Positions 1,036-11,731 of a DNA stretch of 47,636 nucleotides are shown here, in pieces; within the stretch, counting starts at the first letter, position 1, and each line of letters opens with the position of its first letter. The position numbers and the translations under genes are program-made. The stretch is from Ignavibacteriota bacterium (GTDB lineage: Bacteria; Bacteroidota; Ignavibacteria; UBA10030), in the NCBI GenBank assembly GCA_003142475.1, contig PLMK01000008.1:43614-91249 (forward strand), read 5' to 3'. The notes below the pieces were generated by a model. That model ran no database searches. It had not been told where the DNA came from and saw only the letters and a program-made list of their open reading frames with translations.

Positions 1036-1064
1036 TTGACAAACCGAAAAGAATTTCGTACAGT
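1036..1064 (+). promoter_or_regulatory. Possible promoter for the ilv leader and operon
   Basis: TTGACA at 1036-1041 is followed after 17 bp by TACAGT at 1059-1064, which matches 4 of 6 bases of the -10 consensus. TATATC at 1064-1069 is a second possible -10 box at poorer spacing. Transcription would start near 1071, about 20 nt before the leader-peptide GTG. The position fits a leader-regulated operon, but the -10 box is weak and lineage-specific promoter rules could differ. Confidence 0.4.
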
Positions 1065-1091: not shown

Positions 1092-1247
1092 GTGAAACAG
1101 AAAAACCATATAGCCTCCGTTACAACAAACGGCACAGCTTCAACGAGTGTCGTGCCAACGGTTGTTCTGTCATCTAATGTAGTATTAGTACCGCTGACTC
1201 TTATTCTTAGCCTCGTGCTTACTCTTAGCCTTATTATTGTAGGCTGA
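1092..1247 (+). CDS. Branched-chain amino acid leader peptide (ilv attenuator)
   Basis: This 51-codon frame opens with GTG at 1092 and stops with TGA at 1245-1247. It contains 10 Val, 9 Leu, 4 Ile and 7 Thr codons. In residues 20-51, 21 of 32 residues are Val, Leu or Ile, including runs such as VVLVP, LTLILSLVL and LIIVG. Such composition just upstream of ilvD is the hallmark of a leader peptide whose translation senses charged Val-, Leu- and Ile-tRNA. Stalling here would change RNA folding downstream. No good Shine-Dalgarno sequence precedes the GTG, so initiation is the weak point. It is longer than the enterobacterial ilv leader peptides. No other role is apparent, and it is unlikely to be a functional membrane peptide. 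Confidence 0.75.
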   Translation: MKQKNHIASVTTNGTASTSVVPTVVLSSNVVLVPLTLILSLVLTLSLIIVG

Positions 1248-1252
1248 GAAAA

Positions 1253-1327
1253 GCCAGAGGCTGACGAAGCACACCGAAATCGGTATCCAACAAATTCAGG
1301 TCTTGCAACGTTCGCCTCTGGCAGAGG
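1253..1327 (+). promoter_or_regulatory. Mutually exclusive hairpins of the ilv attenuator
   Basis: GCCAGAGGC (1253-1261) is perfectly complementary to GCCTCTGGC (1314-1322). Four further pairs (1263-1266 with 1309-1312, one G-U) extend the stem beyond one mismatch. The downstream arm can instead fold locally as CCTCT-GGC-AGAGG (1315-1327). The two structures cannot form together. The first arm starts 6 nt after the leader stop codon, where a terminating ribosome would cover it. No U-run follows either hairpin, so this does not look like an intrinsic terminator. AGAGG at 1323-1327 looks like a ribosome binding site for the mini-ORF at 1335, which suggests control of translation instead. Confidence 0.6.
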
Positions 1328-1334
1328 AAAAAGT

Positions 1335-1361
1335 ATGTTAATTTCTGTCAGAAAGGAATGA
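1335..1361 (+). CDS. Eight-codon mini-ORF coupled to ilvD
   Basis: ATG at 1335 encodes MLISVRKE and ends with TGA at 1359-1361, 3 nt before the ilvD start. AGAGG at 1323-1327 lies 7 nt upstream at good ribosome-binding spacing. The mini-ORF is in the same frame as ilvD and overlaps the ilvD Shine-Dalgarno region (AAAGGA, 1352-1357). It also overlaps a small hairpin, TTTCT-GTC-AGAAA (1342-1354), which could mask that site. Translating the mini-ORF would open the hairpin and deliver ribosomes to ilvD. This is inference from position; so short a frame could arise by chance. Confidence 0.35.
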   Translation: MLISVRKE

Positions 1362-1364
1362 ATT

Positions 1365-3035
1365 ATGCGTAGTGACCTCATTAAAAAAGGGTTTGAACGC
1401 GCACCACACCGTGCCTTACTCCGTGCTGCGGGCGTAAAGGAAGCAGATTTCGGCAAGCCGTTCATTGCCGTTGCGAATTCTTATGTAGATATCGTACCCG
1501 GCCATGTTCACTTGCAGGCATTCGGAAAGTTAGTAAAGAATGCTATCCGTGCTGCTGGCGGTGTACCATTCGAGTTTAACACGATCGCTGTTGACGATGG
1601 TATTGCGATGGGGCATGTTGGAATGAAATACAGCCTGCCTTCACGCGAACTCATCGCTGACTGTGTGGAAACGATGATCGAGGCGCATGCGTTCGACGGT
1701 ATGGTGTGCATACCAAACTGCGATAAGATTATCCCAGGAATGGTAATGGCTGCTCTTCGGACGAATATTCCTACGATATTTGTTACCGGTGGCCCGATGA
1801 AGGCAGGAAAAACACCAGATGGAAAAGTAGTGGATTTGACTTCTGTGTTTGAAGGTGTTGGTGCATATAAAGCCGGTACAGTAAATGAAAAATGGTTGAA
1901 GGTGCTTGAGCGTTATGCATGCCCATCGTGCGGTTCGTGCTCGGGTTTGTTCACTGCCAACTCGATGAATTGTTTGTTGGAAGTACTTGGGCTGGCATTG
2001 CCTTACAATGGTACTGCACTTGCCAAGAGCAAGGAACGAAATGCACTTGCTGCGGAAGCGGGAAAACTTATTTTAAAACTTGTTGCAAAGAATATTTGTC
2101 CGCGCGATCTGGTTACGCAGGATGCTGTTGATGATGCATTTGCATTGGATATGGCGATGGGTGGCAGCACGAACACAGTGCTTCACACATTGGCTTTCTG
2201 CAATGAAATCGGATTAGAATATCCGCTTTCGCGCATTAATCAAGTGGCAGATAAAATTCCGCATCTTGCCAAGATCAGCCCATCCGGCCCATGGCATATT
2301 GAAGATTTACATAAGGCAGGTGGAATTCCTGCACTCTTAAATGAAGTATCAAAAAAAGGAGAAGACATTCTCCATCTTGATCGACCTACGGTAAGTGGAA
2401 AAACCATGCGGAATATTATTGCAAAAGCGAAAGTAAAGAATTCAGAAGTTATTCGGCCCGTGGAAAACCCGCATTCAGCAAAAGGCGGCTTGGCAATTCT
2501 CTTTGGCAATCTTGCACCCGAAGGTGCAGTGATTAAAACGGCGGGAGTTTCTCAGGCAATGCGTAAACATAGCGGACCAGCGCGAATTTTCGAAAGTCAG
2601 GAAGATGCGCAGGCAGGAATTCTTGCGGGACAAGTGCAAGCAGGCGATGTGGTCGTGATTCGTTACGAAGGGCCATGCGGCGGACCCGGTATGCAAGAAA
2701 TGCTTTCACCGACTTCGGCAATTGTGGGCATGGGGCTCGGTGATAAAGTTGCGCTCATTACCGACGGACGTTTTTCCGGCGGTACACGCGGCGCATGCAT
2801 CGGACATGTTTCGCCTGAAGCGGCGAGCGGAGGCCCCATTGCTGCATTACGTGCCGGTGATATAATTGACATTGATCTTGATGCACGCACGTTGAATGTT
2901 CGCCTGAGCGATGAAGAAATTCGTTCGCGTATTGCAGTGCTGCCGAAATTCGAATATCGCACAACAAGCAAATGGCTTCGACGGTACTCAAAGTTTGTTA
3001 CAAGTGCGAGCACCGGCGCGGTGTTGCGATCTTAA
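1365..3035 (+). CDS. ilvD: Dihydroxy-acid dehydratase
   Basis: This iron-sulfur dehydratase converts 2,3-dihydroxy-3-methyl acids to the 2-oxo acids leading to valine/leucine and isoleucine. It is cytosolic and shared by all three branched-chain pathways. The 556-residue length is normal for the family. Cluster and active-site signatures are visible: [54 protein letters not shown] and the C-terminal [25 protein letters not shown] lies 7 nt upstream of the ATG. It is the first enzyme gene after the leader peptide, so it should feel the attenuator directly. The 18-nt gap to the next frame indicates an operon. Confidence 0.97.
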
Positions 3036-3053: not shown

Positions 3054-3314
3054 ATGCGTTTCCGAAAAGAAACCGCCGGCATGAGAAAAGTGTTGAGAAA
3101 ATCGTACAACCAACAGCGACAACAACTAGAAATAACCGGATACGAAATTTTCGTACGGTGTCTTGCAGCAGAAGGAGTTAATGTAATCTTCGGATATCCG
3201 GGTGCATCGATTGTTGGTATTCATGATGTGCTCTACGATATCAAGACTGCAAAGGTAAAAGGTATGGAAACAGAAGAAGATGGAATGACATCAAACAAAA
3301 GAAGGAATAATGTA
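3054..3314 (+). pseudogene. Vestigial acetolactate synthase N-terminal segment
   Basis: An open frame of 87 codons continues without a stop into ilvB. Its residues from ITGYEIFVRCLAAEGV onward repeat the authentic ilvB N-terminus (MTGAEIFVRSLVEEGV). I count 22 identities in 37 aligned residues, including a shared FGYPG, so it looks like a diverged second copy, not a recent duplication. It breaks off before the catalytic-glutamate segment. No ribosome binding site precedes the ATG at 3054, whereas the downstream ATG at 3315 has one. I read it as the remnant of a second ilvB-like gene. It could instead be translated as an N-terminal extension of IlvB or act as spacer RNA. Confidence 0.55.
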
Positions 3315-5075
3315 ATGACTCCGACAAAAGCATACGATAATCATCAAGGCAAAACGATGACAGGAGCAGAAATATTCGTTCGGAGCCTTGTCGAAGAAGG
3401 CGTGGATACTCTCTTTGGATATCCGGGTGGTGTCGTCATCGGAATCTATGATGTGCTCCACGATTTAACGCATATCAAACATATTCTCACGCGGCACGAA
3501 CAAGGAGCAACGCATGCCGCGGAAGGGTACTCGAAAGCGACCGGCAGGCCTGGTGTTGTGCTTGTTACATCCGGTCCTGGTGCAACAAATGCTGTTACAG
3601 GAATTGCCGATGCGTATATGGATTCGATACCGCTTGTTGTGTTCACGGGTCAGGTTGTTACGAATCTTATTGGAAACGATGCGTTTCAGGAAGTGGACAT
3701 CGTCGGTATTACGCGACCGATCACAAAACATAATTATCTCGTGAAAGATATCAACGAACTGGCAAATACCATCAAAGCGGCCTTTTATATTGCCACCACC
3801 GGAAGGCCAGGCCCGGTACTTGTCGATTTGCCAAAAGATGTTCTTGCGGCGAAGGCGGTTTTTGAATATCCCAAAACGATTTCGCTCCGCAGTTATAATC
3901 CGGTTGTGGAAGGGAACAGTAAACAAATTAAAAAGGCAGCGGAACTTCTCAATGAAGCGAAAAGGCCTCTATTATATGTCGGCGGCGGAGTTATCAGTTC
4001 CAATGCATCTGCTGAGGTTCGTGCACTTGCGGATAAACTGCATGCTCCAGTAACTACAACACTGCATGGATTAGGTGCTTATCCTGAGCAAAGCAAACTC
4101 GCGCTGGGCATGCTGGGCATGCATGGTACGTGGTACTCCAACATGGCTGTTGATCAGTGTGATGTACTTGTTGCTATCGGTGCGCGGTTTGACGATCGTG
4201 TGACCGGAAAAGTGGAAGCATTTGCAAAGAACGCAAAAAAAATTCATATCGATATTGATCCGTCCGCTATAGGTAAAAATGTACCGGCAGATGTTCCGAT
4301 CGTTGGAGATGTGAAACGCGTTGTCAAACAATTACTTGAACTTGTGAAACCGCTGGATACAAAAGAGTGGCTGAAGACGATCGATGGATGGAAAGCAGAA
4401 CATCCACTGAGGTATAAACAGGATGGATCGCTCCGTGCACAGCATGTTATTCATAAGCTTGGTGAAATCACGGACGGTGACGCCATTGTAGTTTCCGATG
4501 TTGGTCAATCGCAGATGTGGACAGCACAATTTTTCAAATGGAAACATCCGCGTACTCAAATTACTTCAGGCGGTTTGGGAACAATGGGTTTCTCGCTTCC
4601 CGCTGCTATGGGTGCAGCATTTGGCCGTAAAGACTTGCCGATTATTTGCATTAGCGGCGATGGCGGTTTTCAGATGAATATTCAAGAAATGGCAACGATT
4701 AAGCATAATAAGCTTCCTCTGAAAATTTTTATCATGAACAATGGATTTCTCGGGATGGTGCGCCAATGGCAAGAGTTGTTCTGGAAAAAAAGGTATTCGA
4801 ATACACGCATTACCAGTCCGGATTTCGTGAAATTGGCTGAATCGTACGGTATTCGCGGTATGCGAGTGACTTCACCTGCAGAGGTTGAAAGCACTATCAA
4901 AATTGCATTAAAATATAATGAAGGTCCTATTCTGGTGGAGTTTGTCGTTGCACCGGAAGAAAATGTCTATCCGATGATTCCTGCGGGACAAACTGTGAAC
5001 GAAATTATGGATAGTCCGGAACCACTGGAACAAAACCATGCGACCCATAAAACGATGATTCATGCAAAAGGATAA
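3315..5075 (+). CDS. ilvB: Acetolactate synthase large (catalytic) subunit
   Basis: This thiamine-diphosphate enzyme condenses pyruvate with pyruvate or 2-oxobutyrate, the committed step of Val/Leu and Ile synthesis. I start it at ATG 3315 because AAGGA (3302-3306) lies upstream and the resulting 586 residues match the family. The frame is open back to 3054, which would add 87 odd residues. The catalytic glutamate is in RHEQGATHAAEGYSKATG. A central cofactor domain includes IGARFDDRVTGK. The ThDP/Mg motif GDGGFQMNIQEM leads into MNNGFLGMVRQWQE near the C-terminus. The partner ilvH follows, with the ilvB stop overlapping an upstream in-frame ATG of ilvH, consistent with translational coupling. 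Confidence 0.96.
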   Translation: MTPTKAYDNHQGKTMTGAEIFVRSLVEEGVDTLFGYPGGVVIGIYDVLHDLTHIKHILTRHEQGATHAAEGYSKATGRPGVVLVTSGPGATNAVTGIADAYMDSIPLVVFTGQVVTNLIGNDAFQEVDIVGITRPITKHNYLVKDINELANTIKAAFYIATTGRPGPVLVDLPKDVLAAKAVFEYPKTISLRSYNPVVEGNSKQIKKAAELLNEAKRPLLYVGGGVISSNASAEVRALADKLHAPVTTTLHGLGAYPEQSKLALGMLGMHGTWYSNMAVDQCDVLVAIGARFDDRVTGKVEAFAKNAKKIHIDIDPSAIGKNVPADVPIVGDVKRVVKQLLELVKPLDTKEWLKTIDGWKAEHPLRYKQDGSLRAQHVIHKLGEITDGDAIVVSDVGQSQMWTAQFFKWKHPRTQITSGGLGTMGFSLPAAMGAAFGRKDLPIICISGDGGFQMNIQEMATIKHNKLPLKIFIMNNGFLGMVRQWQELFWKKRYSNTRITSPDFVKLAESYGIRGMRVTSPAEVESTIKIALKYNEGPILVEFVVAPEENVYPMIPAGQTVNEIMDSPEPLEQNHATHKTMIHAKG

Positions 5076-5757: not shown

Positions 5758-8700
5758 ATGATTCCAACGGTAGCAAAGGATTTTCCACTCTACGATCCGC
5801 GTAATGAACACGATGCGTGTGGTATCGGTTTTATAGTCAACCTGAATGCCGAGCGTTCGCATAATATTATTGTGAACGGAATTCAGATTTTAGTGAACCT
5901 TGCACATCGTGGTGCAAGCGGTTCCGATCCTAAGACGGGTGATGGTGCCGGCATAACAATTCAATTACCGCATCAGTTTTTTGCAAGGGAATGTGCGAAG
6001 CTTGGATTCACTTTACCTCCGGAAGGCGAATATGGAGTTGGTATGGTGTTTCTTCCGGTAGAACCACAATCGCGTTTTGAATGTGAAGCCATCATCGAAC
6101 GGATTGTGCAGGAAGAAGGATTGAGATTGCTCGGTTGGCGTGATACACCGGTAGATGCCGATGCTATCGGTCGTGTAGCGCGCGTGTCTCAGCCGTACAT
6201 CGAACAAATATTTATTCGCAATGCTCAGGGTATGAAGCAAGACGAATTAGATCGTAAACTCTACATCGTCCGAAAACGAATCGAGTCTGAAATTACTGCA
6301 TCCGATATTCGCGATAAGGCATTTTTCTCGATTCCATCGATGTCCTCATCGACAATTGTATATAAAGGATTACTGTTGGCTCAGCAGATTTCACGTTTTT
6401 ACAAAGAGTTATCAGATCCAGATACAATGAGCGCGTTGTGCCTTGTGCATCAACGGTTCTCGACGAATACATTTCCAAGCTGGCAGCTTGCGCATCCATT
6501 TAGATATCTTTGCCACAACGGGGAAATTAATACACTGCGCGGCAATGTGAACTGGATGCACGCACGCCAATCGGTACTTAAATCGGCAGTATTTGGTGAT
6601 GACATTGAAAAATTATTCCCAATCATCCAGCCGGGTGTAAGCGACTCTGCTGCATTAGATAATGCAGTAGAGCTGATAACGATGAGCGGGCGCAGTCTTC
6701 CTCACGCAATGACAATTCTTATTCCTGAAGCCTGGGATGCGAATGTCGGAATGTCGCCGGAGAAGCGCGCGTTCTATGAATACCATGCATCGTTAATGGA
6801 ACCATGGGATGGGCCTGCTGCAGTTGCCTTTACCGATGGCAAAGTCATTGGCGCAATTTTAGATCGCAATGGACTTCGTCCGGCGCGTTATGTAGTGACG
6901 AATGACAACTTACTTATCATGGCATCTGAGACGGGTGTGTTAGATATTGCGCCCGAAAACGTGAAGCATAAAGGATGCCTTGAACCAGGCAATATGCTAC
7001 TTGCCGATCTTACAGAGAAACGCATTATTCCTGATGAAGAGATCAAGGCGCGTCTTGCACAGCGGAAACCATATGGACAATGGATCAAAGAAAATCAGAT
7101 TACAATTGATCAATTGCCAGAACCACCACGCGCATTCGGTTTTAGTCCGGAAGATTTAATTAAACGGCAGCGTGCATTCGGTTATACCGAAGAAGAAATT
7201 AATATGATTGTAACACCGATGGCAGTGAACGGTCAGGAGCCGCTTGGTTCTATGGGAACAGATACACCGCTGGCATGTTTGTCTGATAAACCACAGCTGC
7301 TGTTTAATTATTTCAAACAAAACTTTGCGCAGGTCACAAATCCGCCAATTGATTCCATTCGTGAAGAATTGGTAATGTCGTTGACAAGTTATATCGGAAC
7401 TGAAGGTAACTTGTTAGATGAAACACCGCAACATTGCCACACGCTCAAACTGCCGAATCCGATTCTGACAAATCGTGATCTGGAAAAAATGCGGCGTGTG
7501 TCACAGGGTGATTTTCTTGCGACTATGCTGCCAACGCTATTTCGAGTGGAAGGCGGCGAGAAAGAATTGGAGCGAGCGCTGGACGGACTCTGTCGCAGAG
7601 CATCGCTTGCCATTAACTCCGGTTACACAATCATCATTCTTTCCGACCGAGGTGTTGATGAAGAGTATACGGCGATACCAAGTTTGCTTGCACTCACCGC
7701 TGTACACAATCATCTTATTCGCGAAAAAACACGTACACAGGTTGCGCTGATAGTTGAATCTGGTGAACCGCGCGAAGTGATGCACTACTGTCTCCTCATC
7801 GGTTTCGGAGCGAGTGCAGTCAATCCGTACCTTGCCATCGAAACACTTGAGGGGCTTGCGAACCGTGGATATTTGCCGGAAGGTTTAACATTCGAAAAAG
7901 CGCTCTATAATTATATGAAAGCGGTGAATAAAGGCATTCTCAAAACAATGTCGAAGATGGGCATTTCCACACTGCAAAGTTATCAGGGTGCGCAGGTGTT
8001 TGAAACGATCGGATTGGGAAAAGAGCTTGTTGATAAATATTTCACAGGCATTGCAACGCGCATTGGCGGTATCGGTTTGGATGTGCTGGCTCAAGAAGCG
8101 AAGATGAAACATGATTTTGCGTTTCGTAAGATTACGAGTGCTGATACGGAGCTGGACCTAGGTGGAAATTATCAGTTCCGCATTAATGGCGAAAAGCATC
8201 TTATAAATCCTGAAACAATAACAAAACTCCAACAAGCTGTCCGTTTGTCGGATGAGCAGAGCTACAAAGCCTATGCTCAACAATTGAACGATCAAAGCAA
8301 GAATTTATTTAACTTACGCGGGCTGATGGAATTCAAGAAAGGAACGCGCGGTATTCCGATTTCAGAAGTGGAATCGGCAAAGGAAATCGTCAAACGGTTT
8401 GTAACCGGTGCGATGTCGTACGGTTCCATCAGCAAGGAAGCACATGAAACGCTTGCAGTCGCAATGAACCGCATGGGCGGCAGGTCGAACACAGGTGAAG
8501 GCGGTGAGGACGAAGAAAGATTCAAACCGGATGGCGATGGAAATCTTCGCCGGAGTGCTATTAAACAAATTGCCTCTGGTCGCTTTGGAGTTTCTGCAAA
8601 CTATTTAGTAAATGCTGACGAAATTCAAATTAAAATTGCGCAGGGTGCAAAACCCGGCGAGGGTGGACAACTTCCCGGCCATAAAGTAGATGCTATTATT

Positions 8701-10317
8701 GCGAGAACACGACATTCTATTCAGGGTGTCGGACTTATTTCGCCGCCGCCGCATCATGATATTTACTCTATTGAAGATTTGGCGCAGTTAATTTTTGATA
8801 TGAAAAATGTAAATCCGCGCGCACGTATTTCTGTGAAACTTGTTTCTGAAAATGGTGTCGGTACAGTTGCCGCCGGTGTCGCGAAGGCGCATGCAGATTC
8901 GATCCTTATCAGCGGGGATTCCGGTGGAACTGGAGCATCGCCATTATCATCTATTAAACATGCCGGCATTCCATGGGAAATAGGACTTGCAGAAGCGCAG
9001 CAAGTTTTAGTGTTGAATGATTTACGCAGCCGCGTTCGCTTACAGACCGATGGTAAACTGCAAACAGGGCGTGATGTTGTCATAGCTGCATTGCTGGGCG
9101 CCGAGGAATTCGGCTTTTCGACCATGCCGCTGATTTCTTTAGGATGTATCATGATGCGTAAATGCCATCTCAATACATGCCCAGTCGGAATTGCAACGCA
9201 GGATCCGGAATTGCGAGCAAAGTTCCAAGGAACCCCGGACCATGTCATCAACTTTTTCTTCTTTGTTGCTGAAGAAATGCGTGAAATTATGTCCCGGCTT
9301 GGATTTAGAACAGTAGATGAAATGATTGGACGTGTGGATATGCTGGAAGCGAAACAAGAGATTGAACATTGGAAAGCAAAATACATTGATCTGTCGTTTC
9401 TCCTTCATAATCCTCCTGCACCATCTCGATTTGGACGCCGCTGTCAGATTGCACAGGATCATGGAATTGAAAATGTGCTCGATCATCAACTCATCGAACT
9501 GACACATGATACACTTGAAAAGAAAACACCGGTTGAGCTCACTCTGCAGATTCGAAACGTTCACCGCACGGTAGGTGCAATGCTCAGTGGAGAAGTTGCC
9601 AGGCGGTATGGCTCTGGCGGATTGCCGGATGATACAATTAAAATTCATTTCACCGGTTCTGCCGGTCAAAGTTTTGGCGCGTTTCTCGCAAAAGGTATTA
9701 CATTCATACTGGAAGGCGATGCAAATGATTACGTTGGTAAAGGGCTTTCTGGTGGTAAACTTATCGTTTATCCACCGAGAAAATCGACGTGTGTACCTGA
9801 AGAAAATACAGTAGTCGGAAATGTAATTTTATACGGAGCAACAAGCGGTGAAGCCTACTTCAACGGAAAAGCTGGCGAACGTTTTGCAATCCGCAACTCC
9901 GGCGCAACAGCTGTTGTGGAAGCAATTGGAGCGCACGGCTGTGAATATATGACTAACGGCATTGTAGTAGTGCTCGGACCAACAGGAAAGAATTTTGCGG
10001 CAGGGATGTCAGGCGGACTTGCATATGTGCTCGATGAAACAGGTGAGTTTGCTGCAACACGATGCAACCGCGCAATGGTGGATATCGATCCGCTTGATGT
10101 AAAAGATGAACAAACAATAAAGCAGCTTGTGGAAAAACATGCGGAGTTAACAGCAAGTCCACGTGCTCGTTTCATTCTCGAAAACTGGCCTACAATGGTA
10201 AAGAAGTTTGTAAAAATATTTCCACACGATTATAAGAGGGTATTGAATATTTCTAAAAAAGATCAGGAAAAGAAAACAATACCGGCAGATATTGCAAAGG
10301 AGGATTTTTATGGGTAA
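5758..10317 (+). CDS. gltB: Glutamate synthase large (alpha) subunit
   Basis: GltB releases ammonia from glutamine and channels it to 2-oxoglutarate, giving glutamate with electrons from GltD. Its 1519 residues are the usual bacterial size. The N-terminal glutamine amidotransferase begins after a short propeptide, with the predicted catalytic cysteine at residue 21 in HDACGIGF. The FMN-binding synthase domain carries [16 protein letters not shown]. The three 3Fe-4S cysteines are in [21 protein letters not shown]-terminal beta-helix domain shows [10 protein letters not shown] and [14 protein letters not shown]. The gene sits inside the branched-chain operon, where glutamate is the amino donor for the final transaminations. 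Its ribosome binding site is weak. Confidence 0.97.
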
Positions 10318-11731
10318 ACCGACCGGCTTTTTGGAAATTAAACGTGAAACACCTGCTCGTCGGTCTATTGCAGAACGTATCAACGATTGGAAAGATGTCT
10401 ATCAGGAATTTCCAGATCAGAAAGTACGCTCGCAAGGAGCTCGCTGTATGGATTGCGGTGTTCCATTCTGTCACACTGGTTGTCCACTTAACAATGTTAT
10501 TCCCCATTGGAATGATCTCGTCTATCGAAATCGATGGAAGGAAGCAATTCGTATTCTGCATTCGACAAATAATTTTCCAGAATTCACAGGACGTGTGTGT
10601 CCTGCGCCTTGCGAATCAGCATGTGTTCTTGGGATCAACGAACCGGCTGTGACAATCAAAGTTATTGAGCGGGCAATTATAGATGTCGCATTTCGTGAAG
10701 GATGGATTCGTCCTGAACGTCCCGCACAACGTACGGGAAAGACTATAGCTGTTATCGGATCTGGACCCGCTGGTCTTGCGTCAGCACAGCAATTAAATCG
10801 TGCAGGACATCATGTAACAGTTTATGAAAAAAGTGATCGCATTGGCGGTTTGATGCGTTATGGTATTCCCGATTTCAAATTAGAGAAATATCTTCTTGAT
10901 CGCCGTGTTGAATTGATGCAGGCAGAAGGCGTTGTATTTGCAGTAAAAGCTCATGTCGGTGTGAACATTGCTTCGGATGAATTATTGCGATCGTATGATG
11001 CGTTGTTGCTTTGTGGTGGTTCTGAATCTCCACGAGATTTGAAATTACCAGGCCGAGAATCGAAGGGAATTCATTTTGCCATGGATTTTCTAACTCAACA
11101 GAATCAGCGCGTTGGAGGCACTGTTGTCGATCCAGCGAAAGCAATTCTTGCAACTGGAAAACATGTCGTTATTCTTGGTGGTGGTGATACCGGCGCTGAC
11201 TGCCTTGGCACTTGCCATCGGCAGAAGCCGACATCGGTGCATCAATTTGAAATCATGCCGAAACCGCCGGCAGAAAGAGCTTCTAGTACGCCATGGCCAA
11301 TGTGGCCTTTACAGTTGCGAACGGAAAGCGCTCACGAAGAAGGCGGTGTGCGTGAGTGGGCTGTTGCGACAAATCGTTTTGAAGGTGATGCAAATGGTAA
11401 TGTAAAAAAGTTGCATGCGATTCGTGTAGGTCCACCACCGGATTTTAAACCAATTCCTGGATCAGAATTCACGCTTAATGCAGATTTGGTTTTACTTGCG
11501 ATGGGATTTACAGGTCCCACGAAAAGCGGATTGCTCGATGAATTAGGTGTCGCACTTGATTCTCGCGGCAACATTTCAACCGATGAAAACTTTATGACAT
11601 CCGTACCAAACGTTTTTGCGGCGGGAGATATGCGGCGTGGGCAATCGCTTGTTGTTTGGGCGATCACAGAAGGACGAAAGGCAGCACGTTGTATAGATCA
11701 TCATCTGATGGGTTTTTCTAATTTACCATAA
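10310..11731 (+). CDS. gltD: Glutamate synthase small (beta) subunit
   Basis: GltD oxidises NADPH and passes electrons through FAD and 4Fe-4S clusters to GltB. ATG at 10310 lies behind a strong AGGAGG and overlaps the gltB stop by 8 nt, indicating translational coupling. The protein is then 473 residues, normal for the family; a start at 10292 would add six residues without benefit. N-terminal cluster cysteines appear in [17 protein letters not shown] and [10 protein letters not shown]. The FAD site is [18 protein letters not shown], the NADPH site [13 protein letters not shown], and a C-terminal FAD contact is [16 protein letters not shown]. It shares an operon with ilv genes, an unusual position for gltBD. 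Confidence 0.97.

Follow-up and report, generated by a model that had tools for sequence, protein, structure and literature searches.

Introduction

The ilv and leu operons of enterobacteria are controlled by transcription attenuators that combine a branched-chain leader with a terminator as output. Firmicutes such as S. aureus were added after 2010 to the groups in which leader peptides are known to mediate control by amino acids. Canestrari 2020 is said to describe mycobacterial polycysteine leader attenuators, with an amino-acid-responsive short ORF for an operon; these, unlike the system treated here, sense cysteine and are leaderless. In 2010, the demonstrated cases of amino-acid control by leader peptides were stated to be confined to Proteobacteria and Actinobacteria, ermC aside (PMC2965389). 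A Flavobacterium study found "strong clues" that leader peptides attenuate amino-acid operons (PMC9723704), so the wider group is not without precedent for such leaders. Our literature search, whose coverage left out most subscription papers, found no description of the element reported below.

We have analyzed a stretch of 47,636 nucleotides from an Ignavibacteriota bacterium (the window), in which a short frame rich in Val, Leu and Ile codons precedes ilvD. An earlier note had likened this frame to the leaders of enterobacterial ilv operons. The likeness holds for the branched-chain-codon leader, the competing hairpins and the control of genes of the same pathway (cf. PMC5794164). It fails for the output, since the window has no intrinsic terminator at this place and the alternative partner of the 3' arm of the hairpin is, at most loci, the Shine-Dalgarno (SD) region of the next gene. 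The leaders described here also differ in length, 42-58 codons at 62 of 63 loci, and their RNA is unrelated in sequence.

Other described systems share parts of this arrangement. For S. aureus, a Leu/Ile-rich attenuator with a terminator hairpin and poly-U is proposed; as here, the leader lies directly ahead of ilvD outside Proteobacteria, and the RNA is different (PMC5794164). The M. tuberculosis ilvB1NC attenuator resembles our proposal in that a branched-chain leader and a ribosome at the stop codon that masks RNA set the fold, but its output is a Rho-independent terminator and it belongs to a different phylum (PMC13236596). In ermC, stalling on the leader alters RNA folding and exposes the SD, as proposed here, but the system senses a drug and controls resistance (PMC10219788). 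The actinobacterial LEU element ahead of leuA has a Leu-codon leader and a structure that reaches the SD; it is described with a Leu codon run that pairs with the SD, a proposed pseudoknot, and leucine codon mutants that were still regulated (PMC1262725). Unlike in that element, here a segment 3' of the leader stop, B, would pair with the SD of ilvD, ilvB, gltB or cimA.

Results

The Leader Frame in the Window

The frame occupies positions 1092..1247 of the + strand and has 51 codons, a GTG start and a TGA stop; its 51-residue translation is MKQKNHIASVTTNGTASTSVVPTVVLSSNVVLVPLTLILSLVLTLSLIIVG. Recounting confirmed the frame and the composition claimed for it by the earlier note: 23 residues are Val, Leu or Ile, 21 of these fall within one 32-codon stretch, and a direct count gives 7 Thr. 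The Val/Leu/Ile codons that would be regulatory lie mainly in the last 32. The next gene is indeed ilvD (dihydroxy-acid dehydratase, 1365..3035, + strand), the presumed first regulated gene, at a distance of 117 nt, and the genes of the window bear out that the array encodes enzymes for Ile/Val, Leu and Thr. None of 1000 dinucleotide shuffles of positions 900-1364 reached 21 Val/Leu/Ile per 32 codons; their best open 32-codon stretches held at most 20 (mean 11.1), and across the whole window (47.6 kb, six frames) the leader's stretch is the only one with at least 21. A sigma-70-like promoter, TTGACA-17-TACAGT, lies at 1036..1064 (+ strand) and matches the consensus at 10 of 12 positions, a kind of site of which 0.9 are expected by chance in that region. 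The locus L062, from the same genus, has ATG where the leader of the window has GTG.

Occurrence in Related Genomes

From 12 leader regions we built an RNA covariance model (R1) that spans the end of the leader frame together with the hairpin that follows. It matched 47 places in 41 of the 98 genomes of the order, and a second model (R2) was built from those places. R2 matched 50 of the 391 genomes in a sample of the class, all from the window's own order, and 12 of 395 in a sample of the phylum. Six of these 12 belong to family f43 of another class, where the matches are weak (E-values 0.0009 to 0.009) and all precede ilvB-ilvN. The genome of the window itself gave a single match even at E up to 10. 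The searches of relatives yielded 63 loci in total, and the next recognised gene is ilvD at 37, ilvB at 20, gltB at 5 and cimA at 1, with an RNA model that holds no information on genes. When ilvD was sought in 61 genomes it was present in 32; in family f1, ilvD and the element share one set of 21 genomes out of 32. A DNA pattern derived from the element was found in 16 named genome records, 11 labeled Ignavibacteriae or Ignavibacteriales and 5 Bacteroidetes bacterium. No Rfam 15 family, T-box included, matches the window at gathering score, and the region 880-1450 gave four matches at chance level, each to a snoRNA or microRNA family.

At each of the 63 loci a Val/Leu/Ile-rich frame ends just 5' of the hairpin. 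When the candidate start nearest 48 codons is taken, the one leader outside the length range given above is that of L123, with 26 codons, and a one-codon indel separates leaders of 50 and 51 codons. The promoter pattern TTGA[C/T]N-N16/17-TANNNT occurs within 80 nt of the leader start at 57 of 63 loci, compared to none of 313 control stretches taken inside downstream genes; the six loci that lack it are the six of f43, where the leader start is poorly fixed. Among 43 representatives, Val, Leu or Ile stands at codons -2 and -3 from the stop in 81% and 95%, respectively, with the residues varying. Over the last 18 codons, 17 changes stay among Val, Leu and Ile and 9 lead to or from other residues, against an expectation of 0.21 to 0.45 (single steps, last-28-codon base), counts that come from 15 non-independent pairs and few independent events. 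Neither a frameshift nor a loss of the codon bias, which the earlier note had named as evidence that would refute it, was seen at any of the 63 loci. The position, the bias and the stop position are kept and the peptide residues drift, so that the branched-chain-rich leader noticed ahead of ilvD outside Proteobacteria is conserved in relatives. The seven Thr codons of the window's leader, by contrast, are not shared: leaders before ilvD have a mean of 0.81 Thr in their last 25 codons, and sensing of Thr is not supported because its codons are not conserved.

In six genomes a second copy of the element precedes gltB or cimA. Over the last 25 codons, these second copies are lower in Leu in 6/6 cases, and higher in Ile in 5/6 and equal in 1/6; since they come from three genera, they do not amount to six independent cases. 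The gene order reads gltB-gltD-cimA at L093 and L095, gltB-gltD at L097 and cimA-leuA at L105, L104 ends in gltB, and at L075 gltB is followed by unidentified frames. Citramalate synthase, the cimA product, opens an Ile-specific route. The Ile share is also high at loci where ilvB comes first (0.51 in f5 and 0.56 in f43 versus 0.26 before ilvD), so both the lineage and the gene shape it. In the window, the glutamate synthase genes gltB and gltD (5758-11731) are located within the ilv/leu/thr array; some relatives have the leader element ahead of gltB itself.

Hairpins Downstream of the Leader

The fold of 1071-1364 is more stable than expected (z = -3.9), with 0 of 200 shuffles as stable. The earlier note had placed hairpins after the frame, and two can be located: a short one, P0, at 1224..1248 (+ strand), which pairs 1224-1231 with 1241-1248 and overlaps the leader stop codon, and a long one at 1253-1322. 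Hairpins of the P0 type average -9.1 kcal/mol compared to -5.5 with codon order shuffled, and 35 of 43 representatives have a value below their shuffle mean. The 5' side of the long hairpin is segment A (1253..1266, + strand), which supplies the 5' arms of P1 (1253-1261) and P2 (1263-1266) and contains an invariant SD-like GAGG at 1257-1260. An inner arm with an open loop follows at 1269..1306 (+ strand), with P3/P4 pairing 1269-1271 with 1304-1306 and 1273-1275 with 1299-1301. Segment B (1309..1322, + strand) contributes the 3' arms of P2 (1309-1312) and P1 (1314-1322), carries an invariant CCTC at 1315-1318, and could pair with either A or C, the SD region described below.

In an alignment of 47 sequences, 90.6% of the A:B cells are paired, and double-changed cells number 44, versus 14.9 in shuffles and at most 15 with slid partners, in an alignment that was itself fitted to the RNA model. 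A permutation test of A:B gave 0/20,000 but is biased; we do not rely on it, because A and B were picked at each locus for their best mutual pairing. The GAGG/CCUC letters of P1 are all but invariant, and the neighbouring pairs covary (L065, L069, L098 and others), as if the SD-like and anti-SD-like letters might matter in themselves. At many loci B can also form a hairpin with the bases right after it (GUUC..GAAC, CCUCU..AGAGG); this hairpin is weaker than A:B and, in the window, comes without a U run.

Complementarity of B to the Shine-Dalgarno Region

Segment C (1345..1367, + strand) comprises the AAAGGA Shine-Dalgarno sequence at 1352-1357 and the ilvD start region. The B:C duplex of the window itself is modest (-8.1 kcal/mol). 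Examples from other loci are guucAccu with AGGUGAAC at L068, guucGccu with AGGCGAAC at L074 and gcaaccuc with GAGGUUGC at L133. Each locus's own B:C pair scores -10.54 on average, compared with -9.59 after permutation within families, and 4 of 20,000 permutations were as good, although such counts are not clean probabilities because the loci are related. Control pairings of B with codons 2-8 and 9-16 gave 1954/20,000 and 7600/20,000. The selection bias noted for A:B does not affect B:C, but the starts of L076, L093, L132, L134 and L135 had been set by hand after their complementarity had been viewed (the ATG chosen at L093 lies outside the gltB frame, which opens >100 nt further on); leaving these five out gave 117/20,000, and keeping one locus per genus and gene gave 171/20,000. 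By family, the signal is clear in f6 (11/5000) and f1 (181/5000) but not in f5 (835/5000) or f43 (600/5000). As judged from the sequences, the B:C complementarity is locus-specific.

Predicted Effect of a Ribosome at the Leader Stop Codon

With the stop codon in its A site, a ribosome covers a downstream stretch of about the length masked below. For a codon being translated, cover is stated to extend about 12 nt to its 3' side (PMC4833913). A spacer of 3-10 nt separates the leader stop codon from the start of A, and a stop-codon ribosome would cover only the first few bases of A. Cover was simulated by forbidding pairing of the first 0, 6, 8, 10 or 12 nt after the stop. With these values the mean probability of A:B over the 63 loci was 0.75, 0.71, 0.44, 0.18 and 0.06, respectively, while that of B:C was 0.11, 0.16, 0.35, 0.50 and 0.58. 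The predicted folding thus switches at 8-12 nt of cover, and the following hairpins that the earlier note had taken to fit ribosome-mediated sensing find a counterpart in A:B and B:C, which exclude each other and are selected in the model by ribosome position. These are equilibrium folds from which the coding part of the leader was left out and in which co-transcriptional folding was ignored; in them, the full switch from A:B to B:C is predicted at 33 of 63 loci, A:B falls below 0.5 without cover at 15/63, and B:C stays below 0.4 at 12 nt at 21/63.

With cover, the start region of the next gene (-13 to +3) becomes more than 1 kcal/mol costlier to open at 55 of 63 loci, compared to 0/63 when 12 nt midway along the hairpin are occluded as a control, and the opening cost of the SD hexamer rises by more than 0.5 at 54/63. 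The start opening cost falls by more than 0.5 at three loci, L075, L103 and the window itself (L061). In the window, B:C reaches a probability of 0.88 with 12 nt covered, and the SD hexamer cost goes from 2.8 to 3.3, but the -13 to +3 cost drops from 8.5 to 6.8 kcal/mol. It is not raised by cover because the start region is already structured, and the case that the folding model makes for start-site occlusion in the window is equivocal. The genus mates behave differently, with start costs predicted to go from 5.5 to 9.9 (L062), 6.0 to 9.5 (L063), 5.8 to 7.2 (L064), 3.6 to 9.8 (L065) and 6.7 to 7.7 (L066).

Discussion

We consider that the frame is a leader that senses branched-chain amino acids and controls the next genes, with a probability of about 0.9. 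The leader would report the supply of branched-chain aminoacyl-tRNA and act on the start of ilvD or, in relatives, of ilvB, gltB or cimA. It would do so through an RNA switch of three segments, in which A lies near the stop, B lies about 40-75 nt beyond A, and C is the SD of the next gene. When the amino acids are scarce, a ribosome would stall in the Val/Leu/Ile run and leave A free, so that A:B forms and the start is open; when they suffice, the ribosome would reach the stop codon and cover the base of A, and B:C would close the start. We infer that the leader is translated and that ribosomes stall on it; the direction of control, with stalling opening the gene, is suggested by the geometry together with the logic of feedback. 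The output is probably translational in the main, with B:C closing the start as in the folding model.

The output could instead be ribosome-mediated transcription attenuation, with an intrinsic or Rho-dependent terminator as the alternative to A:B, as in enterobacterial ilv, S. aureus ilvD and mycobacterial ilvB1. The leader logic would be the same, and transcription attenuation appears to exist in this cell, because a Trp leader and a terminator-like site precede trpE in the same genome. Terminator-like sites occur at 11 of the 63 loci, seven of them in f5, where B forms such a hairpin with a copy of GAGG or with nearby bases immediately 3' of it at 7 of 15 loci (L107, L126, L127, L128, L130, L134 and L076) against 0.4 expected, so the output may differ by lineage. 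Outside f5 the count is 4/48 against about 0.8 expected, which leaves 44 of 48 loci without a site. In the window, the + strand of 880-1480 holds no terminator-like site, none lying between the leader and ilvD, and we rejected the terminator reading there, although, as far as sequence can tell, Rho-dependent termination may still operate. What is more, B and the SD region covary, and a terminator would leave this unexplained. As the general output, transcription attenuation is therefore unlikely in our estimation, and occlusion of the SD by B is preferred.

Two further explanations were weighed. If the hairpin were aptamer-like, bound by a protein or small molecule with the leader as a secondary input, one could understand that the inner P3-P4 arm keeps its sequence as well as its pairing, and that an A occupies the unpaired columns 68 and 157 in 40/46 and 39/46 sequences, respectively; yet the loop's sequence and length vary, nothing in Rfam matches at gathering score, and the codon bias and the position effects are explained without a ligand, all of which makes such an aptamer very improbable. 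The frame might also encode a small membrane protein, its hydrophobic codons serving a transmembrane helix. The last 25 residues are hydrophobic, the length and the end are conserved, and a composition of this kind could serve in such a helix, but in the 37 leaders before ilvD these residues lack Met, Trp, Tyr, Asp and Glu altogether and are poor in Phe and Ala (means 0.73 and 0.95), a make-up that usual membrane helices do not have. Copies within one genome, moreover, differ in composition, the distance between the stop and a covarying hairpin is fixed, and P0 overlaps the stop codon. We regard a membrane protein as barely credible, and less so than an aptamer.

A broader interpretation of the sensing leader, to which we give somewhat less than even odds, is that the loci form a lineage-specific switch family without an entry in Rfam 15, whose single amino-acid-sensing core is retuned by codon content toward different branched-chain genes and joined to an exchanged output. 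The core would consist of the leader and the A:B hairpin with the invariant SD-mimic GAGG and anti-SD CCUC, and the outputs would be SD occlusion in most families and a terminator-like hairpin in part of f5. If true, this would be a leader-peptide system whose expression platforms can be exchanged, as those of riboswitches are known to be. The sensing leader itself would widen the taxonomic range of leader-peptide control to Ignavibacteria-like bacteria, and would provide an amino-acid-sensing translational attenuator that works through an SD-mimic/anti-SD pair instead of a terminator. The copies before different genes, with their differing Ile and Leu content, offer a natural test of codon-specific sensing.

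Other leaders and features of the same genome were also noted. Among the short frames read upstream of hisG, none is a His-rich leader. Upstream of trpE (contig C72, near 95,200) lies the locus L152, with the Trp leader MSQSVNHIVSSINRWWWRSSVSKRTGMKTDS, which has three consecutive Trp codons, a TTGACT-17-TATATT promoter and, just 5' of trpE, a terminator-like hairpin with a U run. By its sequence this is a classic-looking candidate trp attenuator, in contrast to ilvD of the same genome. Codons 6-7 of the branched-chain leaders (1107-1115 in the window) often read His followed by Ile, Thr, Val or Ser, with DNA around CATA, in 39 of 63 leaders compared to 33 of 630 control windows, and the Trp leader also has NHI at codons 6-8. 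Finally, the ilvB frame of the window contains a partial N-terminal duplication, 3099-3254 versus about 3327-3479, in which residues 16-67 share 50% identity with a stretch from near residue 92 (E = 5e-15).
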